In this document: piece after piece, positions 8,712-61,255 of the stretch | How positions within the stretch are numbered: the first letter of the stretch is position 1 | How the letters are laid out: the number at the start of each line of letters is the position of its first letter | From: Thermoflexibacter ruber | GTDB taxonomy: Bacteria; Bacteroidota; Bacteroidia; Cytophagales; Thermoflexibacteraceae | Length of the DNA stretch: 64,000 nucleotides | Direction: 5' to 3' | NCBI RefSeq assembly: GCF_900113045.1 | Contig: NZ_FONY01000011.1 | Coordinates: forward strand, 1 to 64,000 | The notes under the pieces: generated by a model | Databases searched by the model: none | What the model saw: the letters and a program-made list of their open reading frames with translations, nothing else | Told to the model about the DNA's origin: nothing | Position numbers and translations under genes: made by a program

Positions 8712-8715
8712 AGTA

Positions 8716-10278: not shown

Positions 10279-10308
10279 CAAGCAATCAAATTACTAACAA
10301 ACACAATT

Positions 10309-11133: not shown

Positions 11134-11148
11134 AAAAAATTGAACCTC

Positions 11149-11967: not shown

Positions 11968-12025
11968 AAATTAGCTATTTGTAGTTCTAAAAATATTTAC
12001 CTAAAACTAACTGATTCATAATATA

Positions 12026-13318
12026 CTGAAAAAAATATACATATTTTGCTCTTTGCTGCTTATTGTCCAAGTAAGTTCATCAGTCTATTGCCAGACCGTA
12101 GATGACCTGTATAAGTATTATCAACACATTGCCAGCAAGTACTTGGTCAAATCTAAGCAGGTAGAGAATTTTTTTTCCATAGATGCACGAGGGATAGCCA
12201 TGTATGCCTCAGCCGCAGACAAGAAAAAAAACACCCCTGAGTGCCTCATTTATTGGGACGAGATAGAAACTTATAAAAACTTAGTCCGTTCCAAAGACAA
12301 AAAAGAACAGTTGGAATATTATGAGAGCAAAAAGGACAAACGTTTTTCCTTATCGGAAAAAAAACGACTGACTACCACCCAATTACCTCCTCAAGCAAGT
12401 TTTGGGAAAGCAAGTGGCAAAAAACTTCAAGGCTACAAGATAGCTATAGACCCCGGACACATTGCAGGCACATTGGATATTGCCAAAGTAGAGCATCGCT
12501 TTATAGAAATGGAAATCAAAGGAAAAAAAGTGAGTTTCTTTGAAGGAGACTTGACCCTGCGAACTGCCTTGATACTCAAAGAGAAATTAGAAAAACAAGG
12601 AGCTACAGTATTTCTGACGCGCTCTCGCCCTAATACTACTGCTTACGGCAACTCTTTTAAACATTGGCGAAAAACTTACCTCCCTGAGATTCTTGATAAT
12701 GCCTTAGCAAGAAAACGTATGAGCAAATGGGAAAGAAATCGCTTGCTTTTTCGTGCCAAAGACACTGAGATTTTTCATGACTACTTCCTTCCAAGAGATT
12801 TAGAAATGCGAGCCTCTTTGATAAATGCTTTTAATCCTGACATTACCATAGTCATACATTTTAACGCCGCTCCCCAAAAAGAGCGTTGGAACATGGCAGT
12901 CAAAGAGAATTACAACATGGTTTTTATGCCAGGTGCTTTTTTATCTGACGATTTAAGCAATCCAACAGAACGCTTGGAGTTTTTGAACCTGCTTATCTTA
13001 GCCAACTTTGACAAATCTGCTAAGTTAGCAGGGCATCTCATCAAAGAATTTATCCAACAACTGGACGTTCCGCCTATACCTGTAAACAATAAAATCTCCT
13101 ATCTCCAGAAAATCAGCAATTTGGTAAGTGAGGGGGTTTACTGCCGCAATCTCAAACTTTGTCGTCAAATAAACAGTCCGCTATGTTATGGTGAAAGTCT
13201 TTATCAAGACAATGAACAGGAAGCACTAAGACTTTTTGAGAACAAAGAGAGGCGAATCAAGCAGGTGGCAGAAGCATATTACAATGCAGTACTTAAATAC
13301 TTTCAAGTAGTCAAATAA
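12026..13318 (+). CDS. N-acetylmuramoyl-L-alanine amidase (Amidase_3), exported
   Basis: A zinc amidase that cuts the bond between MurNAc and the peptide stem of peptidoglycan in the periplasm. The catalytic domain starts at KIAIDPGHIAG (metal-binding His), with a following acidic residue near FFEGDLTLR, the TVFLTRSRP strand, and IVIHFNAA carrying the second His. The first conventional start is TTG 12053, but it would give a signal peptide with no basic N-region. Reading upstream gives KKIYIFCSLLLIVQ immediately before it, with possible starts at CTG 12026 or ATA 12023; an in-frame stop sits at 12008-12010. I therefore place the start at 12026, as inference. A long insert (about residues 200-250) interrupts the domain compared with short AmiC-like enzymes. 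A terminator follows. Confidence 0.85.
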   Translation: MKKIYIFCSLLLIVQVSSSVYCQTVDDLYKYYQHIASKYLVKSKQVENFFSIDARGIAMYASAADKKKNTPECLIYWDEIETYKNLVRSKDKKEQLEYYESKKDKRFSLSEKKRLTTTQLPPQASFGKASGKKLQGYKIAIDPGHIAGTLDIAKVEHRFIEMEIKGKKVSFFEGDLTLRTALILKEKLEKQGATVFLTRSRPNTTAYGNSFKHWRKTYLPEILDNALARKRMSKWERNRLLFRAKDTEIFHDYFLPRDLEMRASLINAFNPDITIVIHFNAAPQKERWNMAVKENYNMVFMPGAFLSDDLSNPTERLEFLNLLILANFDKSAKLAGHLIKEFIQQLDVPPIPVNNKISYLQKISNLVSEGVYCRNLKLCRQINSPLCYGESLYQDNEQEALRLFENKERRIKQVAEAYYNAVLKYFQVVK

Positions 13319-13350
13319 AAAAAGCCACTCTTAAAAAGAATGGCTTTTTT
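13317..13350 (+). terminator. Rho-independent terminator after the amidase gene
   Basis: AAAAAAGCCA and TGGCTTTTTT form a stem around an inner TCTT/AAGA pairing and an AAA loop, ending in six T. It directly follows the amidase stop codon. Confidence 0.8.
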
Positions 13351-13629
13351 ATCTTCTTTCAACCAGCTATGAAAAGAATATTTAAGGCAAAACCCTAAAC
13401 ATTTACTATCTTAGTACAAACGTAATAAAACAAATTGAAAAAAGCAAAATTTTGTTAATAAAAAATTCTATGAAAAATAAAAATGAGTTACTTTTGGATA
13501 GTTTTAGTTTTATAGTATTTTTATTAATCTTCGTAATTAATACTAAAATGCTATTGTAACAAGTATTTGTATCTAATACAAAGTTACATTTATTTTATCT
13601 TTCATAACTTTTCACAACTATTAGTAAAT
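13351..13629. other. AT-rich intergenic stretch with one doubtful micro-ORF
   Basis: Between the amidase terminator and the STAS-like gene the sequence is very AT-rich. The only coding candidate is ATG 13470 to TAA 13559, a 29-residue peptide with a hydrophobic middle (SFIVFLLIFVIN) preceded by charged residues, like a single-pass micro-membrane protein. There is no ribosome-binding or promoter evidence, so chance is equally likely. I see no RNA gene here. Confidence 0.35.
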
Positions 13630-14037
13630 ATGGAACTTATCTTATCTACACCTTATTACACGATTCATCACAGCACGTCTGCCCACCTGTTCCTTGTAGA
13701 ATGGTCAGAAAAGGCAGAGAAAATCTCCAAAGAAGAATTTAAAAAGCATGTCAGCCAATTTGTAGCTAAGGTCAAAGAATACAATATCAAGCGATTTTTA
13801 GTGAATAGTCTTAAAGGACATATTATCATGGACATAGAAACTCAAGAATGGCATGATAAAGAAATTGCCCCTCAGTACATAGCACAGAAAATAGAAAAAA
13901 TTGCTTTTGTTCTGCCTGAAAAAGACTATTTTGCCTCTATTTCGTTAGAACAAGCCTTTGACGAAACCCAAGCCCAACAGCTTCAAACTCGATTTTTTCA
14001 AACTTTTGACCAAGCAATGCAATGGATAGAAAATTGA
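13630..14037 (+). CDS. STAS/SpoIIAA-like protein
   Basis: A 135-residue cytoplasmic protein starting at ATG 13630 (MELILSTPYY). The 21 codons upstream of this point are not protein-like. The alternating pattern matches SpoIIAA-like (STAS/SEC14-type) proteins common in Bacteroidota: strand HLFLVEWS, helix EEFKKHVSQFVAKVKE, strand KRFLVNSL, then IMDIETQEWHDKEI, IAFVLPEKDYFA and a C-terminal FFQTFDQAMQWI. STAS proteins act as phosphorylation-controlled binding partners in partner-switching signalling, though this subfamily often lacks a clear phospho-serine. A SpoIIE phosphatase gene lies 1.3 kb away beyond alaA. The link is suggestive only. It converges with alaA, with 5 bp between the stops. 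Confidence 0.65.
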   Translation: MELILSTPYYTIHHSTSAHLFLVEWSEKAEKISKEEFKKHVSQFVAKVKEYNIKRFLVNSLKGHIIMDIETQEWHDKEIAPQYIAQKIEKIAFVLPEKDYFASISLEQAFDETQAQQLQTRFFQTFDQAMQWIEN

Positions 14038-14042
14038 TTTTT

Positions 14043-15263
14043 TCAATCCCCATTTTCTCCTTGGTATTCTTTTAAAAATAGCTCTAAACGGTCTAAAGCA
14101 AGGGTTAGTTCCTCTACAATAGGCAAAAATACAATCCTAAAATGGTCAGGGGTGGCTAAGTTAAATCCTGTTCCATGTACCAAAAGGACTCTTTGCTGAG
14201 CCAGAAAGTCCAATACGAACTTTTCATCACTTTTGATGTTAAACTTTTTTACATCAATCTTAGGAAAGGCATAAAATGCTCCTTTGGGCTTCACGCAGGA
14301 GATTCCTTCTATCTCGTTGAGTCTTTGCCAAACGTAATCTCTTTGCTTGCGCAAGCGACCGTTAGGCAAGACTAACTCATTGATACTCTGATAACCTCCT
14401 AAGGCTGTCTGAATAGCAAATTGCGAAGGCACATTGCTACAAAGGCGCATGCTTGATAGTAAGTTTAGCCCTTCTATGTATGAGCCTGCATGTTTTTTAT
14501 CCCCACTCAAAATAAGCCACCCTGCGCGAAATCCTGCGGCACGATAGTTTTTGGACATGCCTCCCATAGTAACGAAAAGCGTATCGTCATTGAGGGCAGC
14601 AATGGAAGTATGCGAGGTATCGTCATACAAAATTTTGTCGTATATCTCATCGGAAAATACGATTAGCTTGTGTTTTACCGCTATTTCTGCTATTTTGTGG
14701 AGCAAATCAGAAGGATAAACCGCTCCTGTAGGGTTATTGGGATTAATGACGACGATTCCCTTCGTTTTGGAAGTAATCTTTTTTTCTATATCTGCCAAAT
14801 CAGGATACCAGTTGGATTCCTCATCACATACATAATGCACGGCTTTCCCACCTGAAAGGTTAATAGAGCAAGTCCAAAGTGGATAATCGGGAGAGGGAAC
14901 TAAAATCTCATCTCCATTATTGAGTAGGGCTTGCATGCTCATCATGATGAGTTCACTTACCCCGTTACCTATGTAAATATCGTCAATAGTTACATCTTTG
15001 ATAGATTTGAGTTGGGTATAGTGCATGACTGCCTTACGAGCGGCAAAAAGCCCCTTAGAGTCGCAGTAGCCTTGTGCATTGCGTAAATTAATAATTACAT
15101 CGTGAATAATCTCGTCAGGTGCGTCAAGTCCATGGGGGGCAGGATTACCGATATTTAGCTTAATGATTTTATACCCTTGCATTTCTAATTCTTGGGCTTT
15201 CTCATAGACGGGACCTCGTATATCATAAAAAACGTGGTCTAACTTATTACTTTTGCGGAACAT
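14043..15263 (-). CDS. alaA: AlaA-type alanine/pyruvate aminotransferase (class I)
   Basis: The 406-residue protein closely follows the E. coli AlaA (YfbQ) sequence pattern throughout: YDIRGPVYEKA, LNIGNPAPHGLDAPDEI, AQGYCDSKGL, YIGNGVSELI, and CSNVPSQFAIQTALGGYQSI. PLP residues are all present: NPNNPTG (174-180), Asp205 in SDEIYDKILYDD, and Schiff-base Lys238 in GGMSKNYRAAGFRAGW. A late FRIVFLP supplies the substrate-carboxylate Arg. AlaA transfers the amino group between glutamate and pyruvate to make alanine in the cytoplasm. Length is normal. It is a single gene, convergent with the STAS-like gene and 79 bp downstream of the SpoIIE phosphatase start side. Confidence 0.93.
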   Translation of the reverse strand: MFRKSNKLDHVFYDIRGPVYEKAQELEMQGYKIIKLNIGNPAPHGLDAPDEIIHDVIINLRNAQGYCDSKGLFAARKAVMHYTQLKSIKDVTIDDIYIGNGVSELIMMSMQALLNNGDEILVPSPDYPLWTCSINLSGGKAVHYVCDEESNWYPDLADIEKKITSKTKGIVVINPNNPTGAVYPSDLLHKIAEIAVKHKLIVFSDEIYDKILYDDTSHTSIAALNDDTLFVTMGGMSKNYRAAGFRAGWLILSGDKKHAGSYIEGLNLLSSMRLCSNVPSQFAIQTALGGYQSINELVLPNGRLRKQRDYVWQRLNEIEGISCVKPKGAFYAFPKIDVKKFNIKSDEKFVLDFLAQQRVLLVHGTGFNLATPDHFRIVFLPIVEELTLALDRLELFLKEYQGENGD

Positions 15264-15342
15264 GATGTATTTGTTTGAAAGTTAAGAGCCGCAAAGATAT
15301 GCTTAAAAAATGAAAATTTGGGTGTGTTAGTTTTTCAATTTA

Positions 15343-17403
15343 TCAAGTAATTCTTATGCCTATTACCATTACGTCATCTAATTGGCTCTCATTTCCTTTC
15401 CAAAGCTCAAACTCATTATCTAAAATAAAATGCTGGGTTTGCATATCATGTGGCTGTATGTCTGCCAAAAGTTTGCGGAGGCGATTAGGGGAGTATTTTC
15501 GCGAAGGCATATCTCTGTATCCACCAAATTGGTCTGCATAACCATCGGAAAACATGTAGAAAGTATCTCCTTTTTGGAAGTGTACTTCGTATTGGTTAAG
15601 TTCATACTTCTTTTTGCTGATACCCCCGATAGTAATTCGGTCGCCTTCTATTTCTCTAAATTCTCCATGCTGAAAATACCAAAGTGGACGATGCGCCCCT
15701 ACGAAATCTAATTTCATACGCGTCATATTCATCACACATAGAGCCATGTCCATGCCGTCATGTTTATTATGGTGATGCTGTACGTCTTCTTGTTTAAGGA
15801 TTTTCTTTACTCCGTTATTGAGTTTTCTCAGGATTTGGGCAGGCTGGAATGTACGCTCTACCACAATCACTTGGTACATCAAAGTGTCCCCAATCACCGA
15901 CATCAATGCTCCCGGTACCCCATGCCCCGTACAATCTACAGCTGCTACTACGATGAGTTCATCTCCATCTGGCGAACTAAGTTTGCGAAACCAGTAAAAA
16001 TCTCCACTTACAATATCTCGGGGTTTAAAAAGTACGAAAGATTCTCTAAAAAGACTTCTAATATATTCTCTATCTGGCAAAATAGCAGATTGGATACGTT
16101 CTGCATAATTAATACTTGAGGTAATATTTTTATTTTTTTTCTCTATTTCTTTTAACGCCAATTCCAATTCTCGTTTTTGGTAGCCAATTTTTTCATTATA
16201 GGCTTGGATTTCCTCATTTTTCATTTGGACTTCATCAAATTTTATTTTTAGTTGGTCATTGATGTTGATGAGTTCGTGATTCATGTCCTCCTGCTCCAAT
16301 ACTTTAAACTTAAGTCGCTCTGCCATAAAGATAAAGTTGTTCCACAACTTGCCTATCTCATCGTGTTTATGTCCAAATTCTTTTTTGTACTCAAATCGTG
16401 CATTTAAGTTGCCTTTCCCCAATTCTTCTGCGGCTTCTGTAAGTGCTATGATGGGCTGAGAAAAATAATAACCTAAAAATAAGGCTAAACACAAAGCTAC
16501 AAAAAGTATGGGAATAGAAGATAGGAACAGCCTATTACTAAGACTTTCTGCTGTTTTGAATGCCTCTGTCTTAGGAAGGCTCATAATGAATATCCAGCCT
16601 TGCCCATGATATACTGAATAGCCATTTTCTCTAATATAGAAAAATACTTTTTCCTTATTTTCAAAAAAGTTAGGCACCCAGCGTTTTTGTTTTATCTGTT
16701 TAGAAATATGCTGTTTGAGTACATCTATATCCGGATATGGGTCTTTGAGGATATTTACTTTGGGGTCGTTGGAATACAGAATATAACCAGTGCTGTCCAG
16801 CAATGCTACTCGCAAACCTTTACTTTGCCTTTCATCTTCTACTACACTTTTAAAAACTTCTTTGAGTTCTGTTACTAATACTCTTGATACAATTACCCCT
16901 ACGTAGATACCGCTTCCGTCATACACAGCAGAGGCAAAGTGCATAACAGGCTGATTTTCATAAGTATAAACATCTACAACAAGCTCTTCTTTGGGCAATC
17001 TTTTCCAAAATCTGTTACGTGTGCTTCGCTTGCCAATCTGCATACTATCCGTATCTGCAATGCGTAAGCGGGCAGTATCATAAAAGGAAAGGCTAAGATA
17101 TAAATTATTAGACTGTTTGAAAAGATGTAATCTTTCATTAATTTCCTCAGGTTTTGAAGCATTTTTGCTATAAGTCCCTTTACTAATTATTGCATCTTTG
17201 GCAAAAGTACGTATGTCATTGAGCCGTTCGTAAATAAAACGGTCAATATTTTCCATGGCAAAATTTGACTCGCGCTCTAACTTTACTCTTACCTCCTCTC
17301 TTAGTGAACTTTGAGTTTCATAATTAGCTACATAAAGCATTGCCAAGCAACTAAAAAGAACTAAAAAAAGGCAGAATAGCGTGAGTTTTATAGAAATATT
17401 CAT
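15343..17403 (-). CDS. Cache-HAMP membrane SpoIIE-type serine phosphatase
   Basis: A 686-residue transmembrane phosphatase. TM1 is about 5-27. A double-Cache-like periplasmic sensor spans about 40-285 (FAMENIDRFIYERLNDIRTF, then LLDSTGYILYS). TM2 is about 292-314, HAMP about 315-368, and a coiled coil about 370-425. The PP2C/SpoIIE domain spans about 430-686, starting ITSSINYAERIQSAILP and including GDFYW and DCTGHGVPGALMS (490-502) with metal-binding Asp residues, and ending in QLDDVMVIGIRIT. It should dephosphorylate a Ser/Thr-phosphorylated partner, classically a STAS anti-anti-sigma protein, in response to an extracellular ligand. The same catalytic module ends the giant kinase at 55922-61255. 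The signal and the partner are unknown. Confidence 0.93.
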   Translation of the reverse strand: MNISIKLTLFCLFLVLFSCLAMLYVANYETQSSLREEVRVKLERESNFAMENIDRFIYERLNDIRTFAKDAIISKGTYSKNASKPEEINERLHLFKQSNNLYLSLSFYDTARLRIADTDSMQIGKRSTRNRFWKRLPKEELVVDVYTYENQPVMHFASAVYDGSGIYVGVIVSRVLVTELKEVFKSVVEDERQSKGLRVALLDSTGYILYSNDPKVNILKDPYPDIDVLKQHISKQIKQKRWVPNFFENKEKVFFYIRENGYSVYHGQGWIFIMSLPKTEAFKTAESLSNRLFLSSIPILFVALCLALFLGYYFSQPIIALTEAAEELGKGNLNARFEYKKEFGHKHDEIGKLWNNFIFMAERLKFKVLEQEDMNHELININDQLKIKFDEVQMKNEEIQAYNEKIGYQKRELELALKEIEKKNKNITSSINYAERIQSAILPDREYIRSLFRESFVLFKPRDIVSGDFYWFRKLSSPDGDELIVVAAVDCTGHGVPGALMSVIGDTLMYQVIVVERTFQPAQILRKLNNGVKKILKQEDVQHHHNKHDGMDMALCVMNMTRMKLDFVGAHRPLWYFQHGEFREIEGDRITIGGISKKKYELNQYEVHFQKGDTFYMFSDGYADQFGGYRDMPSRKYSPNRLRKLLADIQPHDMQTQHFILDNEFELWKGNESQLDDVMVIGIRIT

Positions 17404-34191: not shown

Positions 34192-37100
34192 TTACCTTCC
34201 ATCTCCATCATCATCTTTCTCTTCCTCAATCGTATTAGTGTCATCATCTTCCTCCTCAGGCTCTATGGGTGTGTCCAGCCCTAAATAGGCTCTACGGAAG
34301 CGACTAACAAAGCCAATTCTCGCACTTTTTGGCAATAGTTCATAGCCATCTTTACTTTGCTTCTTCTTGGGGTCGGCGATGTCATTGAACTTGGTATTGG
34401 AGGAGAGCAGATATAGCTTATCTTTGCGATAAGAGATATAGTACCAACGCTTAGGACTGATTTCTAAGTAGATATTCAAAGTAACTTTCTCATCGTTTGG
34501 CACCATCGGTATTTCTATGTAACCATCAATGCTTTGGCTAATATTTTTGTTGTAAATACTTGCCAATTGGATTTTTCCTACGCTGTAAAAGGCTTTATAT
34601 TCCTTGCTCCATTTGAGGGTTACGTCTGAAATCACTAAGGCTTTTTTGTCTAATAATCTTGATAGTTCCCCTCTGCCATTTTGCATTCTTCTAATATGAG
34701 CTTTGAGTTCGGCTTCACTGACTTGCGCACCTAATTTGTATAATAAATCGTCATTATTGGCAATAGGTGAATCTTCTGCATCAGCTTGGCTTAGGATATT
34801 GCTTGCCATTTCTCGGAAAGCATCGCCAGAGAGTGTACCTAAGTCGAGAGTAAGCATGGCATTCATGGAGTAGATATTAGTTTTCATGTTGCCCTTGCCT
34901 ATACAGGAAGTTTTAATAGTAAAATTAGGCTTGTTATAGTTAAATAAATTCACTTCACCTTCAAACTCTACTTCCCCGGTAGCATTGCTGTAGGTGAGTT
35001 TATTTCCTATGTAGTTTTCGGCTTCTTTTTGACCTTCTAAAGGTTGGCGTTCTTTGTATGCAATGGTATATTTTTTAGTCTTAGGGTCTTGTCTGATGTC
35101 TGCTCCCTTATCAGGAAGGAAAAGCGGAATATCTCGTTTATGATTAAGTGGTTTGTTTATTACTGTATAAAGTCCACTGCCTTCCTGCTCCAAGTCATGG
35201 GAAAGATACAAGCCTGTTTCTACTTTTTGTCCGTCAGCATCTTTCTCATTGCCGCTATGTGTAAGAATCTGCCCACTACCTCCTGATGTCCTAATCCATA
35301 AACCTTCGGGGTCATCGGAGTCTTTGATGTAGCCGTCAAACTCCAACTCTTTGCGTGTGGCATACATTTTTACTATTCCTTTAAAAAGTTTGCCGCCTTG
35401 TTTTTCAAAATTATCTTCTTCTGTGATATAGGCTTCGGCATAGGTAAAATGCTTTTTGTCAGGATTTAAGGAATCTTTTTTATTAAATAAGAACTCGCTA
35501 AACTTGATTTTGTATGTGTGAGGCACATCATTGGTGTAGTAATAAATGCCGTTACCTGTATATTTTTGGCGGTTATGTATAGTAATATTGGCATTGCGGA
35601 GTACGTGAGCAGTGTCCTTACCAATCATAATACGCACGTTGCAGTTTCTTAATTCTTCCATTTTTGCGCCTTCTTTTACAGTAACTAAACCACTATCAGG
35701 GACTATCTCGGCATCTACCGAACGAATAAAAGGCACCCCACCAACATTTAAAGTATGATTATTGATGTCGTAAAGTGCCGTCGTACCTATGAAAGAAACA
35801 TTTAAGCTATCTGACTTTTTATAGTGCGTAGAGGTAAAAATAGAAGTAGTCGCATCGCTTCCTGCCGCTACGTTCATAATAACTTTCTTGGCATCAAACT
35901 CCCAGCGAGCCTGCCCCAGCGAGGTAGCATACTCTACAAAAGGAAACTTAAAGTTTTGTCTTCGTGGGTTATTGGTAACAATGGTAGAAAATCTCTCTTC
36001 TAAGTCATAGTCTATGCGTACATTCTCCGCTCTTAAAGCAGGCTTTTTAGGGTCAGTAGATTTGATTTCAAAGTACTCGGCATTGTCGGCATGATACCTA
36101 CTCATTTGGAAAACAAAATTATCCGATTTAGCAATAGCTCCTTTGTTTTGAATAGTACCATCGCCTGCTAACTGCTTAGGATTCAAGACCAAAGTTCCCT
36201 CAAAGGTACTTACCAAAGAGGTATCATTGGCATCGAGTTTATAGGCTACAGGTTTGCCATATATCTCAAATGGGATAGGTTTTTTGATTGTCTTTTTGGG
36301 ATTATTAGGGTCTTTGACCTCATCGAAAGTCGAGGTAAGTCGCATACTATCTGCCCTTACAGCCCAGTTCATTCTAAAATTTCGCATAGACACATCGGGG
36401 TAGCTAATGCCATTAAAATTTGGATTTGCCTCGATAAAGCCCCAAGATTGTGGCTCAACGGGAGGAAGTTTGTCAAAATTGGTTTTACTCAGCGTCAAAT
36501 CAGTTTTAAGGAGCATTTTTTTCTTTATTGCCATTTTTCCTAAGGCAGTAGTAGAGTCAGGATAAAATACATAATCGTTGGAACTTAGCTGTGCGGTAAG
36601 ATAATTGATTTTTCCGTTACCTCTAATGCCTTGATTATTAAGCATTATGTTCCATTGATTGGTGATTTCTTTGCCATCTTTTTCATGCCTATCATAAGCC
36701 CAACGTTTTTCATCATCATGGTCTGTAAAGATTGCCGCATTTTCTCCTTTGATATTCCTATAAAGTGGATAGCCCTCTGCGTACTTTCCTGTGGGTTCTT
36801 TGTCCAGAGAATCTCTGTGATTTTTAAAATCGTGCATAAAGCCAAAGGATTTATCTGGCATAATACGAGCTGTAATCTTAAAATCAGGGAAAATACCTCC
36901 ACTATGAAACATTCCGTCTAAGACAGTTTTCTCGACTCCTCTACTTGTCAAACTATCCATGCGGAATTTTTCCAAATCTATCCGTACTTTATTTCGCCCT
37001 GTGGTACTATCTATTTGGCTATATGAGCCATCTAAAACCTCTTTACCGTCAAAAGCAATATAAGCACCTGGTTCTGCGGCAAAATAGGGATAGGGTTTAG

Positions 37101-39720
37101 ATTGCTGAAAATATCTTTTTAATTCTCCAGATTTGTTTTTAGGTAAAGCTAAACGCAATACCCCATTGGCACTTTTTACTTTGTTTGCCATTTCTTTGAA
37201 ATTCCCCAGTGAATCTTTAACAGGTCTATTGAGTGAATCTCTCTCGATAAAACCAATTTCTGCCTCTTTCATGGCTACTTGGAAAGTATCATAATCAAAA
37301 GTTAAGCCTTTGGCGCGATAGTTTGCCTGCCCTACGGTTTGTATTTCTCCATCAAAAACCAATCTACGATTTTGCTTGATTATCACCTTTTTACTCTTTG
37401 GTTTCGCCCAAACGTCTAAGCGGTCTTTGGGCAAGGTATCGTTAGCATCGTCTTCTAAACTTAGGTTAGGGCGGCGGCGCAGCGGGAAAATAGGCACATC
37501 ATTGACTATCAAATCATTGGTATTCAAGTCCAACTTCATATTGGTATGCGCGCCCTCTGAAAGTGAGAAAAGTTCTAATTTATCATAGTCCAAAGCCCCA
37601 TTGTACGCATTGGCGTAAAGCACTCCTTTGCGGGTAAGTCTTACCGAATCGCTAAAACTCGTGTAGCCGTCAAAAGTAACATAACCTAATCTTTGTAAAC
37701 TTTTCATTGAGGAACGAATATGCTCGGGTTTACGCTTGACAAAGTTGGCTAAACCTGACATAGTAAATTTAGTAGATTTGATTTGCTTAGAGTATGCCAA
37801 AGCTGCCGCCAAAGGGTGATAATCATTCAATCCTTTGAGTCTAATGTATTCATACTCATTGAAATAGTCCATAGAACGAACCTCTGCTTTGATTTTGTCC
37901 ATAGAAATATCCTCTGCATAGTTTTTGACTACATCGCCGCTACCTGTCATTCCTTTGGCGATGGCTTTGGGGTTTTTGGACAATGCGTAATCCTCTTGTG
38001 GGCGGTTAGAAACTTCCATTACATCAGGATTAAATCCTCGCTTTTCTTTTTGTTTTTCGGCTTCTTTCCTTGCTTTTTCTGCCTCTTTTTCTTTTTGTTT
38101 TTCGCTTTTATTTGCCTCCTTTTCGGCTTGTTTTTTTGCCTCCTCTTCGTCTATAGCTTGCAAGCCTTTAAGTTTGGCTTTCTTATTGGGGTCTTCGGTC
38201 ATAGAAACTTTGGCAGAGTCAGGGATATTGCCTGTAAGCATCGCAATCGTCATGCTGTCTTGGGTTACGTTCCACTCTACGTAGTCTGCAAAAATTTCCA
38301 TGCGGTGATAGGAGTCAAAAAAAGGAGCATAGCGATATTCGTGTTTTTCTTTCCTTGCTCTCAACAGCCCTGTATTTAAGTTATAGCGAAGTTGCGCCCC
38401 ATTATGCTCTATAAAAAGGCTGTCGTTATTGTGCATAAAAATTTTTATTTGGGCAAGTGGGTTGAGAATCAAAGAATCAGAAAAGAAAAACTCCTGCCTT
38501 GAGCTTGCCTCAAACTTTTTCTGACCGTTCCGACTAATTGTAATTTTAGAAGGCAAATTACTCAAATTTACACTTGAAAAACGCCTGCCTACTAAGCTAC
38601 ATCCTCCTTTGTAAGTTACCTCTTTGGCTATATTTTTTACTATAGCATCAGCGTAATAGGAGGTAAATTTAGGATAGCGTACATATTCCCTTTTAGCTAC
38701 TCTTTCACTTTTGTACTCAAAGTCCCCTAATACTGTGCCTTCAATTTTTGATTTGTAGGTAAGTTTGCAATACAATGCCTTGAGTTCGGGAAGTCTTGTA
38801 TTGAACTCATAGTTGTCCAACTCACAAAACGCATCGGTAGGCGAAATCCCCTCTCCTTCCCAATCCGCTGTACCTCCCGTGCCATGAAAAGTATAAGCTG
38901 CAAGCTCGACCTTGCCCGTAGTCCCTTTGATTTTCAAGGTGTCGTACAGGGAGAGCATCTCTAAATCAATATTTTCAAACTTAATAACGGGTCCTGTTAC
39001 AGGTCTTTGAATAGGCTTTTCAAAAATATACTTGCTTAATAAGACTGGTGGCTCAGCTACAGGTCCGGTTTCAAAACCTTTGAGTGCCTCGTCTGCGGTG
39101 TAGAAGCCAGAAGTATCAAACTCTGAGGAAGGAGCCTCTACTGCTACAGTATCTTCCGAAGCGGCTATGGCAATGTCTTCTTTGAGCAATTCGGTAGCGG
39201 CATTTACATACTCAAAAGTAAATTTGGCATTTTTTGAAACCCTCAAATTGTAGGAAGGTGATTTATAGAGTAAGTCTTCCTCTAAGAATGAGCGAGAGTT
39301 GGTGAAAAATCTTGAAAGTATATACACACTGTAATTATAACGCTCTGCCGTTTTTCCTGCGGTTTCTATAAACTTGCTCACTTCCTCCGAACTCACCCGC
39401 TTGATGTCCACCAAAGCAGTAATACAGCCATAAAAGTTCTCCAAATGCACGAGAGGGTCTAAGGCTTTGATAGAGATAGCTTTACTTATCTCAAATACTT
39501 TTTTCTGTTGCTCAGGAGAGAGCTTCCCCCAAGTTGCCTCGAACTTGCTTTCTGTTTCGTTTGCCCTGCGACTTGCCGACTTTGAGAGTGCGGCTTTAAT
39601 ATCCTGAAGGAAAGTAGCTTCATTGGTTAGTTTAGCTACTTGAGCTTTAGCAGAAGTAGCCCCTACTACCCAAAATAAGAGCAAGCAAAAATACCACAAA
39701 ATCGTTTTTATATTTTTCAT
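34192..39720 (-). CDS. Very large exported protein of unknown function (about 1842 residues)
   Basis: I do not recognise this protein. It starts at ATG 39720 with a signal peptide (MKNIKTILWYFCLLLFWVVG, cut after AKAQ). The N-terminal 190 residues are helical. A long beta-rich body of repeated strand patterns follows, some of which (for example GTTALYDINNHTLNVGGVPFI) resemble LptA/OstA-type stacked beta repeats. A Lys/Glu-rich stretch with the EEAKKQAEK and EKEAEKARKEAEK pattern (about 515-570) is a likely coiled coil. Next, about 620-740, is a segment (SGLANFVKRKPEHIRSSMKSLQ) that looks like a winged helix. The C-terminus is acidic (EPEEEDDDTNTIEEEKDDDGDGR). It is probably periplasmic. The gene stands alone and converges with the propeller gene. 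Confidence 0.7.
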   Translation of the reverse strand: MKNIKTILWYFCLLLFWVVGATSAKAQVAKLTNEATFLQDIKAALSKSASRRANETESKFEATWGKLSPEQQKKVFEISKAISIKALDPLVHLENFYGCITALVDIKRVSSEEVSKFIETAGKTAERYNYSVYILSRFFTNSRSFLEEDLLYKSPSYNLRVSKNAKFTFEYVNAATELLKEDIAIAASEDTVAVEAPSSEFDTSGFYTADEALKGFETGPVAEPPVLLSKYIFEKPIQRPVTGPVIKFENIDLEMLSLYDTLKIKGTTGKVELAAYTFHGTGGTADWEGEGISPTDAFCELDNYEFNTRLPELKALYCKLTYKSKIEGTVLGDFEYKSERVAKREYVRYPKFTSYYADAIVKNIAKEVTYKGGCSLVGRRFSSVNLSNLPSKITISRNGQKKFEASSRQEFFFSDSLILNPLAQIKIFMHNNDSLFIEHNGAQLRYNLNTGLLRARKEKHEYRYAPFFDSYHRMEIFADYVEWNVTQDSMTIAMLTGNIPDSAKVSMTEDPNKKAKLKGLQAIDEEEAKKQAEKEANKSEKQKEKEAEKARKEAEKQKEKRGFNPDVMEVSNRPQEDYALSKNPKAIAKGMTGSGDVVKNYAEDISMDKIKAEVRSMDYFNEYEYIRLKGLNDYHPLAAALAYSKQIKSTKFTMSGLANFVKRKPEHIRSSMKSLQRLGYVTFDGYTSFSDSVRLTRKGVLYANAYNGALDYDKLELFSLSEGAHTNMKLDLNTNDLIVNDVPIFPLRRRPNLSLEDDANDTLPKDRLDVWAKPKSKKVIIKQNRRLVFDGEIQTVGQANYRAKGLTFDYDTFQVAMKEAEIGFIERDSLNRPVKDSLGNFKEMANKVKSANGVLRLALPKNKSGELKRYFQQSKPYPYFAAEPGAYIAFDGKEVLDGSYSQIDSTTGRNKVRIDLEKFRMDSLTSRGVEKTVLDGMFHSGGIFPDFKITARIMPDKSFGFMHDFKNHRDSLDKEPTGKYAEGYPLYRNIKGENAAIFTDHDDEKRWAYDRHEKDGKEITNQWNIMLNNQGIRGNGKINYLTAQLSSNDYVFYPDSTTALGKMAIKKKMLLKTDLTLSKTNFDKLPPVEPQSWGFIEANPNFNGISYPDVSMRNFRMNWAVRADSMRLTSTFDEVKDPNNPKKTIKKPIPFEIYGKPVAYKLDANDTSLVSTFEGTLVLNPKQLAGDGTIQNKGAIAKSDNFVFQMSRYHADNAEYFEIKSTDPKKPALRAENVRIDYDLEERFSTIVTNNPRRQNFKFPFVEYATSLGQARWEFDAKKVIMNVAAGSDATTSIFTSTHYKKSDSLNVSFIGTTALYDINNHTLNVGGVPFIRSVDAEIVPDSGLVTVKEGAKMEELRNCNVRIMIGKDTAHVLRNANITIHNRQKYTGNGIYYYTNDVPHTYKIKFSEFLFNKKDSLNPDKKHFTYAEAYITEEDNFEKQGGKLFKGIVKMYATRKELEFDGYIKDSDDPEGLWIRTSGGSGQILTHSGNEKDADGQKVETGLYLSHDLEQEGSGLYTVINKPLNHKRDIPLFLPDKGADIRQDPKTKKYTIAYKERQPLEGQKEAENYIGNKLTYSNATGEVEFEGEVNLFNYNKPNFTIKTSCIGKGNMKTNIYSMNAMLTLDLGTLSGDAFREMASNILSQADAEDSPIANNDDLLYKLGAQVSEAELKAHIRRMQNGRGELSRLLDKKALVISDVTLKWSKEYKAFYSVGKIQLASIYNKNISQSIDGYIEIPMVPNDEKVTLNIYLEISPKRWYYISYRKDKLYLLSSNTKFNDIADPKKKQSKDGYELLPKSARIGFVSRFRRAYLGLDTPIEPEEEDDDTNTIEEEKDDDGDGR

Positions 39721-39744
39721 AATTAATGAGTTATTTCTAATCAT

Positions 39745-54930: not shown

Positions 54931-55833
54931 GTGAATATTTTGCAAGTTAAAAATGTGGTAAAGCAATATGCAAATCATACCGCATTGAATAATGTAAGCA
55001 TCAATGTATCTAAGGGAAGCATTTATGGTTTACTCGGACCTAACGGCGCAGGTAAAACTTCCCTAATTCGGATTATTACTCAGATTACTGCTGCCGACAG
55101 TGGAGAAATACTTATGCACGGCGAGCCGCTTACCCCAAAGCATATCCAAGACATAGGTTATATGCCTGAGGAGAGAGGACTATATCGCAAAATGAAAGTA
55201 GGAGAACAGTTGCTATACTTAGCCCGCTTGAAAGGGGTAGGGCTGGCAGAAGCGAAAAATCGGATTAGAGACTGGCTCAGACGGTTGGATATTGAAAGTT
55301 GGTGGAATAAAAACGTAGAAGACCTCTCCAAAGGTATGCAGCAAAAGGTGCAGTTTATTGCCACTGTCTTGCATCAGCCAGATCTGATTATTTTAGACGA
55401 ACCTTTTTCAGGCTTAGACCCTGTAAATGAAAATATTATTAGAGATGAAATTTTAGCACTAAGAAAAAAAGGCAGTACGATTATCTTCTCTACGCATCGT
55501 ATGGAAACAGTAGAGGAACTCTGCGACGAGATTACTTTGATTAATAAAGCTCAAAAAATATTGGAAGGTAAAAAAAGACTTATCAAAGAAGATTATAAAA
55601 CACATACTTTTTTAGTAGAAACTGTGGAGAAACTTACGCAAGTATCAAATCAGTTCAGATTGATAGAGTCAAAACCAAATGAAAATGGTAACTTTGTAAG
55701 TCGAGTCAAAATTTTACATGGGACTAATAACGAACTCATCAATGAAATTATGCGATATGCCAATATAATTTCATTTAAGGAGGAACTTCCAACCATGCAC
55801 GATATATTCGTAGAACTCGTGAAAGGAAAATAA
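54931..55833 (+). CDS. ABC-2-type transporter ATP-binding protein
   Basis: A 300-residue ATPase with a GTG start at 54931. The nucleotide-binding domain has Walker A GPNGAGKTSLI, a MPEERGLYRKMKVGEQLLYLARLKG Q-loop region, signature LSKGMQQKV, and Walker B LIILDEPFSGLDP, then the H-loop ending STHRMET. The last 80 residues form the extra C-terminal domain seen in ABC-2 type exporters (LVETVEKLTQVSN). The permease gene normally found next to it is not in this place; instead the giant kinase gene follows about 90 bp downstream. The partner permease is unknown. Confidence 0.93.
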   Translation: MNILQVKNVVKQYANHTALNNVSINVSKGSIYGLLGPNGAGKTSLIRIITQITAADSGEILMHGEPLTPKHIQDIGYMPEERGLYRKMKVGEQLLYLARLKGVGLAEAKNRIRDWLRRLDIESWWNKNVEDLSKGMQQKVQFIATVLHQPDLIILDEPFSGLDPVNENIIRDEILALRKKGSTIIFSTHRMETVEELCDEITLINKAQKILEGKKRLIKEDYKTHTFLVETVEKLTQVSNQFRLIESKPNENGNFVSRVKILHGTNNELINEIMRYANIISFKEELPTMHDIFVELVKGK

Positions 55834-55921: not shown

Positions 55922-58900
55922 ATGCTTCCGATAAGTAGCCAATTGCTGTACGATGGGAATTATTCTGCTCTGTATTTTCAGGTAGCCTCTGAGAGTACAA
56001 AACCTTGCCTCATAAAGGTACTTAAGAGTAATCAGGCGCATGCCTTAGAAAATAACCAACTTAGTAATGAGTTGATGATGACTCAGTTACTCCATGAGGT
56101 AAGTGGAGTACGGAAGGCTATTCGGAAAGAAAACGTCAATGGCTATCCTGCCATACTGTTAGAGTATGTGCAGGGCATAACTGTTAAAGAGTTTTTCGCA
56201 AGCAGTAGAAACTCTATCGCTACTTTTTTAAAGGTAGCTATCCAAATTGCTGATACACTTGCTCAGATTCATCAGTACAATATCATACACAAAGATATTA
56301 ACTCGAATAATATCATTTATAACCCACAAACCAATGAGGTAAAAATTATAGACTTTGGAATCTCGACCAAGATGAGCCTCAAAGCTCAGCACTTAGGCAA
56401 CCCAAGCAAGTTAGAGGGAACGCTGGCATATATTTCTCCAGAGCAAACTGGAAGAATGAATCGTACAGTGGACCACAGGAGCGACTTGTACTCTTTGGGA
56501 ATTACTTTTTTTGAGATGCTTACAGGAAGATTGCCTTTTGAAGTAGATGACCCTATAGAATTAGTGCATTGCCACATCGCTAAAACACCACCCAAAGCGA
56601 ATGATTTGGATATACAAATTCCAGAAGTAGTAGCCCAAATCATACAAAAACTTTTAGCCAAAAGCACAGAGGCTCGTTATCAATCAGCCTTAGGACTGAG
56701 AAATGACTTAGAGATAGTCCTTAAATCCATAGAAACTAATGCAGACCTCCCCGCCGATTTCCAACTTGGTCAAAAAGATTTCTCTGCTAAATTCCAAATT
56801 CCACAAAAATTGTATGGAAGGGAAAAAGAAATCGCCGAGTTACTTTTGACCTACGAAAGAGTAAGTGAGGGGAGTACAGAAATACTGTTGGTGAGCGGAG
56901 CGTCGGGAACGGGAAAATCACAGCTTATCCATGAAATACACCCAGCTTTAACTGCTAAAAGAGGTTGGTTTATCGAGGGCAAGTTTGAGCAGTTTCAGAA
57001 AAATATTCCTTATAAGGCTTGGATTCAGGCTTTTGAGGATTTTGTTAGCCTTTTGCTTACTGAAACGGCGGAAGCTTTGGCAGATTGGAGGCAGAAAATA
57101 TTAGACGCAGTAGGGGAGAATGCCAAATTGCTGACTGATTTGATTCCTAAGTTAGAACTAATTATAGGGGAACAGTCGGCATTAGCAGATTTGGAAGCCG
57201 CAGAAGCACAAAGCCGCTTCAATCATGTAATCCAACATTTTGTCAAAATTATTGCTCAGCCTGCACATCCCCTGGTGGTATTTTTAGATGATTTGCAATG
57301 GGCAGACATTGCTTCTTTGAACTTATTGGAACTTCTGTTAAAAGAAAAGCAAGTCAATTATTTGCTACTTATTTGTGCTTATCGAAGCCAAGAGGTTTCG
57401 CCTTCGCACCCTTTCATGATGGGAATAGAAGAAATCAGAAAAGCACAAGTACCAATCAACGAGTTACAAATTCTTCCACTTACCCAAGCCAATATCAACG
57501 AATTGTTAGTAGATACGCTTGGCAGTTCTTTGGAATACACAGAGCCACTTGCTAAGTTGATTTATGAAAAAACACAAGGCAATGCCTTTTTTGTCAATCA
57601 GTTTTTACAAAGTTTATACGAACAGGAGTTACTCTCTTTCAAAATCAAACAAACACCCTACGGACAAAAAGCGGCTTGGGAATGGGATACTTATTACATA
57701 CAACAGCTCAATTTTACAGATAACGTCATTGACTTATTAGTAACTAAAATAGAAAAACTGCCCCCAACTACCCAAGAAACCATAAAAATTGCGGCTTGCT
57801 TAGGCAATCGCTTCGATTTGCATACTCTTGAACTGATTAGCAAAAAAAATAGTGAGCAAATCAATCAAGATTTAGAAAGTGCCGTTGCAGAAAATTTGAT
57901 TTTACCTACCGATTTTAATAATTATAAATTTGCTCACGACCGTATTCAGCAGGCTGTTTATTCGCTCATTAGTGAAGAAGAAAAAATACAAACCCATTTT
58001 AATATTGGGAATGCCCTTGTTGCTTCTATGGACAAGGAAGAGCAAGAGGAAAACCTTTTTGAGTTGGTCAATCAGTTAAATTTAGGAATTAGCCTAATTA
58101 CTACCCAAAAGGAAAAAGCAAGGCTGGCACACCTCAATTACCAAGCGGGTCTGAAAGCAGAAGATTCTACTGCTTTCGAGGCTGCTTTTGATTATCTCAA
58201 AAGCAGTATCAGTCTATTAGAGCCAAGTTGTTGGGAAAAAGATTATAGTTTTACCTATCAAGTTTATAAAACTGCCGCTCAGAATGCTTTTTATTGCAGT
58301 AAGTTCAAAGAGGCAAACGAAATAGGGAAAGGTATATTAGCTCATGCGAAGAATGTAGTTGAGAAAGCACCTATCTATGAAATCCAACTCAAAGCCCTAC
58401 TTTCTCAGAATCAAATAGCCCAAATGCTTGACCAAAGCATAGAAATACTGAAAGAGTTTAAGATTCATCTACCACGCAAAGCCTCTAATTTAGATATAGT
58501 TAAGAGTCTAATCTCTTTAAAAATGGCTATCCGTGGGAAGACTCCGGAGTCTTTTGCACAGCTCCCGCCTATGCAAGACGAAACAGCGAAGGCTCTTATC
58601 AGATTATACGAAGCGATAGGACAAGCCGCTTATTTTGCAGAGCCTACACTGCTGGCAATCATCATTTTTAATCAAGTCAAGTTAGCAGCAAAATATGGCA
58701 ATACAGAGGATACGATTTACTCCTATGCCTCTTATGGTTTATTGCTTTGTGGGGTATTGAACGACATAGAAACTGGCTATCGCTTTGGGAAAGTGGCAGA
58801 TAAACTGTTGGTAGAGTGGAAAGTAAAACGCTTAGAAGCAAAAACTGCTTTTGTCAATAACTACTTTATCTACCACTGGAAAGAGCCTCTGCAAAACTCC

Positions 58901-61255
58901 GCCAAGGGTTTGGAAAATGCCTACAAAAAATCCCTTGAATATGGTTTAGACCCTCTTTTTACCGCTTACTGCATCACTCTTGCCGATGTGCTTTACTTCA
59001 TGTCGGGCAAATATCTGCCTGATTTGCAAAAACAAAGTGCAGAAAGTGCCAAAGTTTGCTTAAAAGTAGGGCAGGAGCAGTCTTATCAACACTCATTAAC
59101 TTTGCAACAGTTAGTAGCTAACTTAGCCCAAGAAACTGACAACCCCACAATTTTAGCTGGTAATTTCTACCATTCAGAAAATAACAAGGCAAAGAGAGAA
59201 GCCTCCAAAGACCAAGCACACATTTTTACAGTACTGTTTGATGAGATGATATTAAGTTATCTTTTTGGAGATAATGAAAATGCTTGGAAAAATAGTGAGG
59301 AAGCACGAAAAAATATGGGAACGGCTATGGGGTCGCCTTTTTTATACTTTTATTATTTTTATGACTCGCTTATTATTCTAAATAAAAAAGAGCGAAGTAA
59401 GAAAGAACTTAGCAGAATAAGACAGAACCAAAAAAAGTTGCAAGTCTGGTCTAAACTATGTCCTAACAATAGTTTGCAGAAATATTATTTGGTAGAGGCA
59501 GAGTTAGCCCAAGCCGATGCCAAGCCAGAACTTGCGAAACAACACTACGACAAAGCCATTTCCTTAGCTAATAAGCACCAATTCATCAACGATGAGGCTT
59601 TAGCATGGGAATTGGCAGGCAGATTCTACATAAACACTAACGAAACCTATTTGGCTAATTTTTACTTACAAAATGCTGTCCGTTGCTACGGAGCTTGGGG
59701 AGCATTAGCGAAAGTAAAGCACTTAGAAAATCAATATCCACAAATCAGCCAATTTACCGTCAAAACAGCCACCGCTACTACAAGTAAAACCATTACGCTC
59801 TCTAAAAGTGCTACTATTACAGGCAGTATGAGTATGCAAGGCACAGTAACGATGAGTTCTGTCTTGGATATGCGAAGCATCATCAAAGCCTCTCAAACGC
59901 TTTCTGGAGAGGTAGTTTTGAGCAAGCTATTAGAAAAGATGCTCCAAATAGTCATGGAAAATGCAGGAGCAGAGTTTGCGGTACTCTTGCAAAGAGCGGA
60001 GGGAGGGCAGTTCAAAGTGATAGCAGAATCCAATGGAGTAGGCAACTACCAATCTATAGACCAACTCCCCATAGAAGAATATGGGAGAATTGCTACTTCT
60101 ATAGTGAACTATGTAATTCGCACCAAAGATTCGGTAGTATTGAATAATGCGGCAGAAGATAAAAAGTACAATACCGATGCCTACATCAAAACCCATCAGC
60201 CCAAGTCAGTACTTTGTTTCCCAATTACTTATAAGGGTAGAACCGCAGGAATTTTTTACTTAGAAAATAACTTGGTAGAGGGCGTATTTACGGCTGACCG
60301 ATTAGAAATCTTGAAGCTACTCTCAGCCCAAATTTCTATCTCCTTAGAAAATGCCTTGCTCTATGAAAACTTAGAAGAGAAAGTAAGAGAAAGGACTAAA
60401 AAACTCCACGAAAGAAACGAGGAAGTCAGAGCGCAGGCAGAAGTCTTAGCCGCAACCAATAAGGAATTAGACAGTAAAAATCAAGCAATTACCGCAAGTA
60501 TCAATTATGCGCAGAGGATTCAATCGGCAATGCTTCCTTTGGCAGAGGACTTTCGTAAGTACTTTCAAGACCATTTTATTCTTTTCCGCCCAAGAGATAT
60601 AGTCAGTGGAGATTTTTATTGGTTAGAGGAGAAAGAAGGTAAAATCATCGTATCGGCAATAGACTGTACCGGGCATGGGGTACCAGGGGCTTTTATGTCT
60701 TTGATTTCTGAGGCAAAACTCAATGAAGTTATTAACTTACAGCATATTACCCAAGCAGACGAAATTCTTAATACCCTGAACAGACAAGTAAAGGTATTCC
60801 TCCAACAAGATGAAACCAATAACCGCGACGGTATGGATATGGCGATTTGCATTATAGACAAGCAAGCCCAAGTCATGGAATATGCAGGCGCAGGTAATCC
60901 ACTTATCTATATACAAAATGATGATGCTGGCACACCCCAATTGCACTACATCAAAGCAGATATTTTCCCTATTGGAGGTTTTAATAAGAATACTTCTTAT
61001 ACATTCAAAAGGCATTTGATAGATATTTCCGTGCCAACTACTTTCTATATTTTTTCTGATGGCTACCAAGACCAATTTGGAGGGATAGAAAGACGCAAGT
61101 TCATGACTAAGCGTTTTAGAGAACTACTCTTTGAGATTCATACCCAGCCTATGCAAGAACAAAGAGCCATACTCAATAGCACCTTAGAGGCTTGGATGCA
61201 GGAGGGAAATAGCTCACAGGTAGATGATATATTGGTGATGGGCTTTAGAATTTAG
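55922..61255 (+). CDS. Giant Ser/Thr kinase - AAA ATPase - GAF - SpoIIE phosphatase fusion
   Basis: A 1777-residue cytoplasmic protein joining opposite activities. Residues 1-270 form a protein kinase: candidate Lys32, a catalytic HKDINSNN segment (HKD 123-125, not HRD), DFG 144-146, and SPEQTGRMN in the activation segment. An ATPase of the NACHT/AAA-like type follows, with Walker A GASGTGKS (326-333) and Walker B VVFLDDLQWAD (about 450). A helical TPR-like region with several AFDYLKSSISLLE-like pairs follows to about 1300. A GAF domain (about 1310-1475) leads through a coiled coil to a SpoIIE/PP2C domain (about 1520-1777, DCTGHGVPGAFMS near 1581) ending QVDDILVMGFRI. It resembles large CHK1-like bacterial kinases, but ends in a phosphatase instead of a histidine kinase. 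The ligand of its GAF or ATPase module is unknown. Confidence 0.93.
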   Translation: MLPISSQLLYDGNYSALYFQVASESTKPCLIKVLKSNQAHALENNQLSNELMMTQLLHEVSGVRKAIRKENVNGYPAILLEYVQGITVKEFFASSRNSIATFLKVAIQIADTLAQIHQYNIIHKDINSNNIIYNPQTNEVKIIDFGISTKMSLKAQHLGNPSKLEGTLAYISPEQTGRMNRTVDHRSDLYSLGITFFEMLTGRLPFEVDDPIELVHCHIAKTPPKANDLDIQIPEVVAQIIQKLLAKSTEARYQSALGLRNDLEIVLKSIETNADLPADFQLGQKDFSAKFQIPQKLYGREKEIAELLLTYERVSEGSTEILLVSGASGTGKSQLIHEIHPALTAKRGWFIEGKFEQFQKNIPYKAWIQAFEDFVSLLLTETAEALADWRQKILDAVGENAKLLTDLIPKLELIIGEQSALADLEAAEAQSRFNHVIQHFVKIIAQPAHPLVVFLDDLQWADIASLNLLELLLKEKQVNYLLLICAYRSQEVSPSHPFMMGIEEIRKAQVPINELQILPLTQANINELLVDTLGSSLEYTEPLAKLIYEKTQGNAFFVNQFLQSLYEQELLSFKIKQTPYGQKAAWEWDTYYIQQLNFTDNVIDLLVTKIEKLPPTTQETIKIAACLGNRFDLHTLELISKKNSEQINQDLESAVAENLILPTDFNNYKFAHDRIQQAVYSLISEEEKIQTHFNIGNALVASMDKEEQEENLFELVNQLNLGISLITTQKEKARLAHLNYQAGLKAEDSTAFEAAFDYLKSSISLLEPSCWEKDYSFTYQVYKTAAQNAFYCSKFKEANEIGKGILAHAKNVVEKAPIYEIQLKALLSQNQIAQMLDQSIEILKEFKIHLPRKASNLDIVKSLISLKMAIRGKTPESFAQLPPMQDETAKALIRLYEAIGQAAYFAEPTLLAIIIFNQVKLAAKYGNTEDTIYSYASYGLLLCGVLNDIETGYRFGKVADKLLVEWKVKRLEAKTAFVNNYFIYHWKEPLQNSAKGLENAYKKSLEYGLDPLFTAYCITLADVLYFMSGKYLPDLQKQSAESAKVCLKVGQEQSYQHSLTLQQLVANLAQETDNPTILAGNFYHSENNKAKREASKDQAHIFTVLFDEMILSYLFGDNENAWKNSEEARKNMGTAMGSPFLYFYYFYDSLIILNKKERSKKELSRIRQNQKKLQVWSKLCPNNSLQKYYLVEAELAQADAKPELAKQHYDKAISLANKHQFINDEALAWELAGRFYINTNETYLANFYLQNAVRCYGAWGALAKVKHLENQYPQISQFTVKTATATTSKTITLSKSATITGSMSMQGTVTMSSVLDMRSIIKASQTLSGEVVLSKLLEKMLQIVMENAGAEFAVLLQRAEGGQFKVIAESNGVGNYQSIDQLPIEEYGRIATSIVNYVIRTKDSVVLNNAAEDKKYNTDAYIKTHQPKSVLCFPITYKGRTAGIFYLENNLVEGVFTADRLEILKLLSAQISISLENALLYENLEEKVRERTKKLHERNEEVRAQAEVLAATNKELDSKNQAITASINYAQRIQSAMLPLAEDFRKYFQDHFILFRPRDIVSGDFYWLEEKEGKIIVSAIDCTGHGVPGAFMSLISEAKLNEVINLQHITQADEILNTLNRQVKVFLQQDETNNRDGMDMAICIIDKQAQVMEYAGAGNPLIYIQNDDAGTPQLHYIKADIFPIGGFNKNTSYTFKRHLIDISVPTTFYIFSDGYQDQFGGIERRKFMTKRFRELLFEIHTQPMQEQRAILNSTLEAWMQEGNSSQVDDILVMGFRI

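Follow-up and report, generated by a model that had tools for sequence, protein, structure and literature searches.

The DNA analysed here, hereafter the window, comprises positions 1 to 64,000 of contig NZ_FONY01000011.1 of Thermoflexibacter ruber. It contains the gene for a giant protein, referred to below as the giant, which starts with a PknB-like Ser/Thr kinase domain and ends with a PP2C/SpoIIE phosphatase domain (Table 1). An earlier note on this DNA had already placed both enzymes at opposite ends of one protein, and the single frame, the Pfam matches and the AlphaFold2 models confirm this arrangement.

Table 1. Features of the window, with the domains of the giant in order
Feature	Position	Strand	Remarks
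STAS candidate of the earlier note	13567..14037	+	multi-copy family of the order
Second SiaA-like phosphatase in the window	15343..17403	-	HAMP, SpoIIE; dCache_1 under cut-off
ABC transporter ATPase gene	54931..55833	+	88 bp upstream of the giant
Giant, whole gene	55922..61255	+	1777 aa, single uninterrupted frame
PknB-like Ser/Thr kinase domain	55952..56683	+	residues 11-254, Pfam Pkinase 3.7e-32
AAA_16/STAND-type ATPase	56807..57373	+	residues 296-484, Pfam AAA_16 1.6e-42
Remainder of predicted ATPase core, helices and short strands	57374..58081	+	residues 485-720, AlphaFold2
Middle region without a Pfam family, helical repeats putative	58082..59833	+	residues 721-1304
GAF domain	59921..60349	+	residues 1334-1476, Pfam GAF_2 7.5e-14
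Single predicted 80-residue helix	60293..60532	+	residues 1458-1537, AlphaFold2
PP2C/SpoIIE phosphatase, SiaA type	60635..61249	+	Pfam SpoIIE residues 1572-1776, 5.8e-14

The four Pfam matches of the giant (Pkinase, AAA_16, GAF_2 and SpoIIE) all exceed their family cut-offs, and the NCBIfam SiaA model spans residues 1481 to 1777. AlphaFold2 models of residues 1-720 (31 sequences, mean pLDDT 86.9) and 1305-1777 (24 sequences, mean pLDDT 92.1) agree with this layout and contain one helix that bridges GAF and phosphatase. The giant is full-length in two congeneric homologues with 71% and 67% identity. The ATPase, which had been described as NACHT-like, is an ATPase with Walker A (GASGTGKS, 326-333) and Walker B (LDDLQWAD, 455-462) motifs, but its Pfam match over cut-off is AAA_16 (STAND-type): weaker AAA, nSTAND and ATPase_2 models were among the Pfam matches listed, while NACHT was not. 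Residues 485 to 720 may include a winged-helix-like part. In the middle region, Pfam detected no TPR and gave a sole match to an unrelated family (E 0.098); the TPR label is therefore unproven, because Pfam gives no family match there. The stretch 1458-1540 is heptad-like, with 68% hydrophobic residues at the a and d positions, a value equalled by 38 of 2000 shuffles, and the modelled helix at 1458-1537 is a candidate for a dimerising signalling helix.

The upstream ABC transporter gene adjoins the giant in three of three congeneric genomes, one of which has a 203-aa frame in between, and it was not present at nine more distant loci compared, where one weak ABC match was seen. A link between transporter and giant was rejected, since conservation is confined to the genus among the loci compared. 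Elsewhere in the window, a frame of 1850 aa (34192-39744) matched neither Pfam nor NCBIfam models at E 0.001.

Kinase and front end across homologues

Residues 1-933 of the giant have matches at E 0.001 in 36 of 59 related genomes (among the matches listed), and a SpoIIE-type giant occurs in 13 of the 59 genomes and in four of 22 families. The 37 long frames of the own order comprise 29 with a SpoIIE output, four with a histidine kinase, two with a cyclase and two that run off their contigs; one genome (G007) contains eight matching places, corresponding to seven intact SpoIIE giants and a broken one. A scan of named genomes provided the best 80 loci, which are mostly cyanobacterial, the other lineages being Bacteroidota, Pseudomonadota, desulfobacterial, myxobacterial, clostridial and other records. 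The own-order frames and these 80 loci form a set of 112 comparable homologues, from which seven frames with no readable output (L070, L086, the second frame of L099, L104, L122, L128 and L149), two short frames (L135 and the second of L109) and the broken copy L065 had been dropped. In the wider phylum, 14 of 395 genomes, including the window's own, match at 1e-150; with two candidates scored per genome, the 15 other matches are by similarity seven histidine kinase-like, seven cyclase-like and one unreadable fragment, two of the 15 being genes of genome G045 that were already counted.

The same front end is followed by a variety of output domains. Among the 112 homologues, 55 end in a histidine kinase, 35 in SpoIIE, 11 in a class III cyclase, six in GGDEF, two in a sigma-54 activator and one in STAS, and in two the output is not visible, leaving 110 readable outputs (L137 and L155 run off their stretch before the output). 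The suggestion that the common version of this architecture ends in a histidine kinase is thus borne out by 55 of the 110, and in 75 cases the same kinase front end precedes an output other than a phosphatase. The histidine kinase label is based on HATPase regions in 55 of 59 cluster rows, detected with a profile built from nine HATPase regions that Pfam had confirmed, and in 12 of the 55 directly by Pfam; for the SpoIIE, cyclase, GGDEF and STAS clusters, Pfam was run on 10 representatives (3, 4, 2 and 1, respectively) and the others were assigned via cluster profiles. The STAS domain ends a giant of Sorangium cellulosum (L144, 7929-13082), and the sigma-54 activators, each with an HTH, end giants of Syntrophobacteraceae and of a Deltaproteobacteria MAG (L162, 1640-7507, and L166, 7953-13424).

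Mapping the five larger labels onto front-end trees gave 22 output changes for the kinase-ATPase tree and 23 for the tree of ATPase plus middle region, compared with means of about 45 after shuffling. Well-supported branches of these quick trees, which were built without bootstrap and without L162, L166, L137 and L155, force at least five and at least seven changes of the SpoIIE label, respectively, and a single origin of the fusion was rejected on this ground. The many output changes indicate that the front end is a reusable input module, and from this output swapping it follows that the kinase is not specifically the antagonist of the phosphatase. The phosphatase tree, from which the separate-phosphatase loci L015 and L018 are absent, forces just one change between fused and separate copies, so that the SiaA-type domain may have been captured in one or in several events; the giants of one cyanobacterial (L115) and one Desulfobacteraceae locus (L147) carry a phosphatase of another, more RsbU/SpoIIE-like lineage with a support of 100.

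The kinase domain of the giant contains K32, E50, HKD (123-125), N130 and DFG (144-146), while its glycine-rich loop, as read from the sequence, is poor. In a fold comparison that listed kinases only, Mycobacterium tuberculosis PknB (5u94) was the top match, with a Z-score of 31.4 and 250 residues superimposed at 1.9 Å. The N-terminal kinase is probably active. The HKD in place of HRD, to which the earlier note had drawn attention, is real but ordinary: it is the family norm, being found in 92 of 112 homologues, whereas five have HRD. PADLOC models of defence kinases also match the giant, the 25 best of 33 matches peaking within residues 8-281; a role in a defence system was rejected, as the matches listed are generic kinase-domain matches.

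Conservation of the kinase core was scored on four residues (K, HxD, N and the Asp of DFG). The core is intact in 83 of 112 homologues, which shows that not every relative has degenerate kinase residues; the remaining 29 lack at least one of them, and 14 changes between intact and broken cores occurred on the kinase-ATPase tree. Many proteobacterial histidine kinase versions, for example, have GFG in place of DFG. In contrast, the Walker A lysine is present in 111 of 112 homologues, and by sequence it is the ATPase rather than the kinase that is the constant part of the front end. The frequent losses, together with the poor glycine loop of the window protein, would fit a kinase that serves as a catalytically dispensable regulatory domain, as is apparently the case in many relatives. 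For the giant itself this is highly improbable, because it retains K, E, HxD, N and DFG and the four counted residues are kept in 33 of 35 SpoIIE-type members.

The extent of conservation differs with the output: the core is kept in 33 of 35 SpoIIE and 11 of 11 cyclase versions versus 35 of 55 histidine kinase, two of six GGDEF and none of two sigma-54 activator versions. These counts are in line with a reading in which the kinase autophosphorylates the receptor, for example on the linker or the GAF domain, and the phosphatase resets this mark, thereby combining feedback with output. Five independent pairs, a comparison of SpoIIE with all other outputs that corrects for kinship, lean in the same direction, yet the association is not significant (median p 0.25), and two SpoIIE-type members retain the phosphatase while their kinase core is broken. 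Such self-regulation is thus unlikely, and selection for an intact kinase in combination with SpoIIE, although favoured by the raw counts, was rejected on the same test.

The phosphatase and the Sia partner-switch genes

The phosphatase of the giant is SiaA-like and not RsbU-like according to its sequence. It reaches 188.5 bits with the NCBIfam SiaA model, close to two phosphatases from a sia operon of the same genome (179 and 201 bits on contig C47), whereas two classic RsbU/SpoIIE-like phosphatases of this genome score about 35 bits. Nonetheless, the giant is not a SiaA equivalog, since the full-length cut-off of that model (NF038263) is 700 bits. Among solved structures, SiaA-PP2C is the best relative both by sequence (7.7e-34) and by fold (E 3e-21, target TM-score 0.90, 28% identity in the structure alignment). 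The metal-ligand aspartates 1564, 1581, 1713 and 1768/1769 occur in all 35 fused copies; with the kinase core kept in 33 of these 35, core residues are present for both of the opposing enzymes that the earlier note saw joined in one chain.

The GAF-to-phosphatase end of the giant is matched by 61 other places in the genome, several of which are pieces of one frame, and all 61 matches are confined to this end. One of them is the second phosphatase of the window at 15343-17403, for which a common target with the giant had been considered on account of its similar layout. The two are indeed alike (43% identity), but not exceptionally so: the second phosphatase ranks 25th of the 61 places, 24 scoring higher, and the phosphatase tree contains no well-supported link between the two. 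It belongs to a set of dozens of similar paralogues, and the likeness is a family trait of proteins of the same class; a role as a specific same-target partner was therefore rejected.

In Pseudomonas aeruginosa, SiaB phosphorylates and SiaA dephosphorylates SiaC within the peptide LLYLNTSSIK (T68), as stated in the available parts of PMC7647112 and PMC8457831. The genome of the window encodes seven SiaC, four SiaB and three STAS proteins; all seven SiaC proteins have YFNT at the site corresponding to the phosphorylated peptide, and on contig C47 two SiaA-type phosphatases, SiaB and SiaC are encoded in line. Three of the seven SiaC genes (on C57, C115 and C103) have no adjoining SiaB gene, so another kinase is conceivable for these proteins. 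Several dozen SiaA-like phosphatase domains in the 5.5-Mb genome (the 61 places and L199, 1-8726) face the seven SiaC and four SiaB proteins, i.e. many inputs converge on few switches, and several relatives show a similar picture in counts limited to 45. Directly downstream of another siaB-siaC pair (C54), a frame for a 205-aa protein with no family match over cut-off (L200, 4572-5189) is a candidate SiaC partner.

Within the 64-kb window there is no siaB or siaC gene, and none of the sia genes was seen in the short flanks fetched with the own-order giants. SiaC and SiaB profiles run over 117 fetched loci (1.62 Mb) matched at L157 and L146 only. In L157, a Gallionella MAG (sp. STC_38), the genes for the giant, SiaB, SiaC and a class III cyclase follow each other on one strand (7932-15563), the first three being separated by 68 and 15 bp, while siaC and the cyclase gene overlap by 8 bp. 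The SiaB protein reaches 173 bits with the NCBIfam SiaB_fam_kinase model (cut-off 85), and SiaC scores 122 bits, under the equivalog cut-off of 150. This gene order suggests that diguanylate cyclases may not be the only nucleotide cyclases under SiaC control. In L146 (Desulfobacteraceae), siaC is followed by the gene for a hybrid histidine kinase and then by the giant; the hybrid kinase (436-2982; HisKA, HATPase, two receivers and Hpt) is a candidate for a SiaC-controlled output. In both loci, the SiaC site reads NSSSS and not NT. Among the best 80 named loci, SiaC or SiaB genes are nearby for two of six SpoIIE-type giants versus none of 69 others (Fisher p 0.005), an operon evidence that consists of two MAG contigs, both from outside the phylum of the window.

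A similar association is visible at the level of genome content. The 13 genomes with SpoIIE giants encode between four and 42 SiaC proteins, compared with zero to two in four genomes that have only histidine kinase or cyclase giants (p 0.004; one-sided p 0.003 at the family level), a co-occurrence that is confounded by kinship and by the overall abundance of PP2C domains. Genomes without any giant have a median of one SiaC, and SiaC-rich genomes without a giant exist (G014 with 14 copies); G003, whose copies extend past contig ends, was excluded from the comparison.

If the phosphatase instead acted in the manner of RsbU, its substrate would be a STAS anti-anti-sigma protein and its output the control of a sigma factor. 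The components are at hand, as the genome has three STAS proteins and six HATPase_c_2 matches over cut-off, including two strong ones (94 and 82 bits), one of which is encoded beside a STAS gene, and the giants of L115 and L147 do carry a more RsbU/SpoIIE-like phosphatase. The phosphatase in the window, however, is of the SiaA type, and STAS counts are no higher in SpoIIE-giant genomes (three to six) than in those with other outputs only (four to six); compared with genomes lacking a giant, the difference is weak (p 0.015, and 0.07 at the family level). In addition, the STAS substrate proposed at 13630-14037 found no backing: the enclosing frame has no STAS match in Pfam or NCBIfam and nothing over a Pfam cut-off, and a search against solved structures gave nothing useful. 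An RsbU-type output is thus quite improbable. The family of this frame has many copies per genome in the order (32 places in G007), several of them with in-frame stops.

The earlier note also proposed that the giant both sets and resets a phosphorylation state, which would mean that kinase and phosphatase oppose each other on one target while the STAND and GAF input decides which of them dominates. The core residues of both enzymes in 33 of 35 SpoIIE-type members, the three SiaC genes without SiaB beside them and the kinase-PP2C fusions known elsewhere (PMC1262709 and PMC9239204, in the parts available) are in line with this idea. It fared less well against the 75 non-phosphatase outputs of the same kinase front end, the 29 of 112 kinases that miss a core residue, the two of 35 SpoIIE-type members with an intact phosphatase and a broken kinase core, and the existence of SiaB kinases, one of which is encoded separately in the same operon as a giant (L157). 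This reading is possible but rather unlikely, and it is weaker than one in which the giant is a receptor acting on SiaC. Very improbable, too, is the narrower version in which the N-terminal kinase would phosphorylate the SiaC proteins without an adjoining SiaB, such that one ligand-gated chain, a SiaA fused to a Hanks-type replacement of SiaB, would both write and erase the SiaC phosphate.

Proposed working and relation to known systems

We propose, with moderate confidence, that the giant is a soluble STAND-kinase receptor with a SiaA-type PP2C output, which dephosphorylates SiaC-type proteins and is opposed by separate SiaB-type kinases, with the fused kinase as a part of its input. A ligand signal would bind to the middle region or STAND ATPase and the GAF domain and shift the oligomeric state. 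The long helix between GAF and phosphatase could relay this change to a phosphatase dimer, by analogy with RsbU, for which a coiled-coil linker mechanism is described in the available part of PMC12143880 (Baral et al.). The phosphatase would then remove the phosphate from a SiaC-type phosphoprotein, with separately encoded SiaB-type HATPase kinases as likely antagonists, and dephosphorylated SiaC would bind and switch an output enzyme. In P. aeruginosa the published output enzyme is a diguanylate cyclase; in Gallionella, going by the gene order, it is perhaps the class III cyclase. The N-terminal kinase would be part of an input module common to the histidine kinase, cyclase, GGDEF, sigma-54 activator and STAS versions, and may target the receptor itself or another protein. 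If this proposal is true, a Sia partner switch, and perhaps also a nucleotide cyclase, can receive its input from receptors with a Hanks-type kinase, and SiaC provides a concrete candidate substrate class for a greatly expanded group of phosphatases (dozens per genome versus seven SiaC here).

A search of full-text literature, mostly non-subscription and mostly judged on title and abstract opening, returned no identifiable description of the kinase-STAND-GAF-SpoIIE order, and the available parts of PMC8638967 (Leptospira regulators) and PMC7159879 (STAND conflict systems) name no such layout. In the literature searched, the domain order has thus not been characterised with another role. Several known systems share parts of it. 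The closest counterpart of the output is SiaA of the SiaABCD partner switch of P. aeruginosa (PMC7647112 and PMC8457831, in the parts available), which has a similar PP2C domain; the giant differs in having a soluble kinase-STAND-GAF module of about 1,480 residues as its input and in not being encoded beside SiaB and SiaC in the window, while its relative in L157 has both neighbours and that in L146 has SiaC alone. Both opposing enzymes are combined in single-chain PP2C-kinase fusions, as outlined in the available parts of a 2005 report on Pseudomonas (PMC1262709) and of a description from Campylobacterota (PMC9239204). In the Pseudomonas protein, unlike in the giant, the phosphatase is N-terminal to the kinase, and the available descriptions of these fusions name neither STAND nor GAF. 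The TOMM kinase/cyclase fusions (NCBIfam TIGR03903) share the STAND region, but by the name of the model they have a cyclase output and a TOMM gene context, and the giant scores 157 bits against a cut-off of 706, with the best stretch at residues 296-710.

Proteins with a Ser/Thr kinase and a histidine kinase in one chain are well described, and in the available parts of PMC2176072 and PMC1262709 the dual kinases HstK and cbSTKIII of cyanobacteria resemble the giant, by description, in their N-terminal Ser/Thr kinase, GAF domain and C-terminal signalling enzyme. Thirteen cyanobacterial rows of our alignment (A3) are 41-48% identical to residues 1-720 of the giant, and the cyanobacterial histidine kinase-type loci found here are presumably cbSTKIII proteins. 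The giant has the traits of this type of kinase-STAND-GAF receptor, namely a kinase homologous to that of the histidine kinase-type giants, an AAA_16 domain with Walker A and B motifs and a GAF domain in front of the output, but it carries a PP2C phosphatase where HstK and cbSTKIII have HisKA and HATPase. That one kinase-STAND-GAF front end is combined with six or more types of output agrees with the published concept of an exchangeable coiled-coil signalling toolkit and broadens it, this family being a large natural example that adds class III cyclase, sigma-54 activator and STAS outputs. Within this range, the giant is a relative of cbSTKIII, and not a member as published, in which the C-terminal histidine kinase is replaced by SpoIIE.
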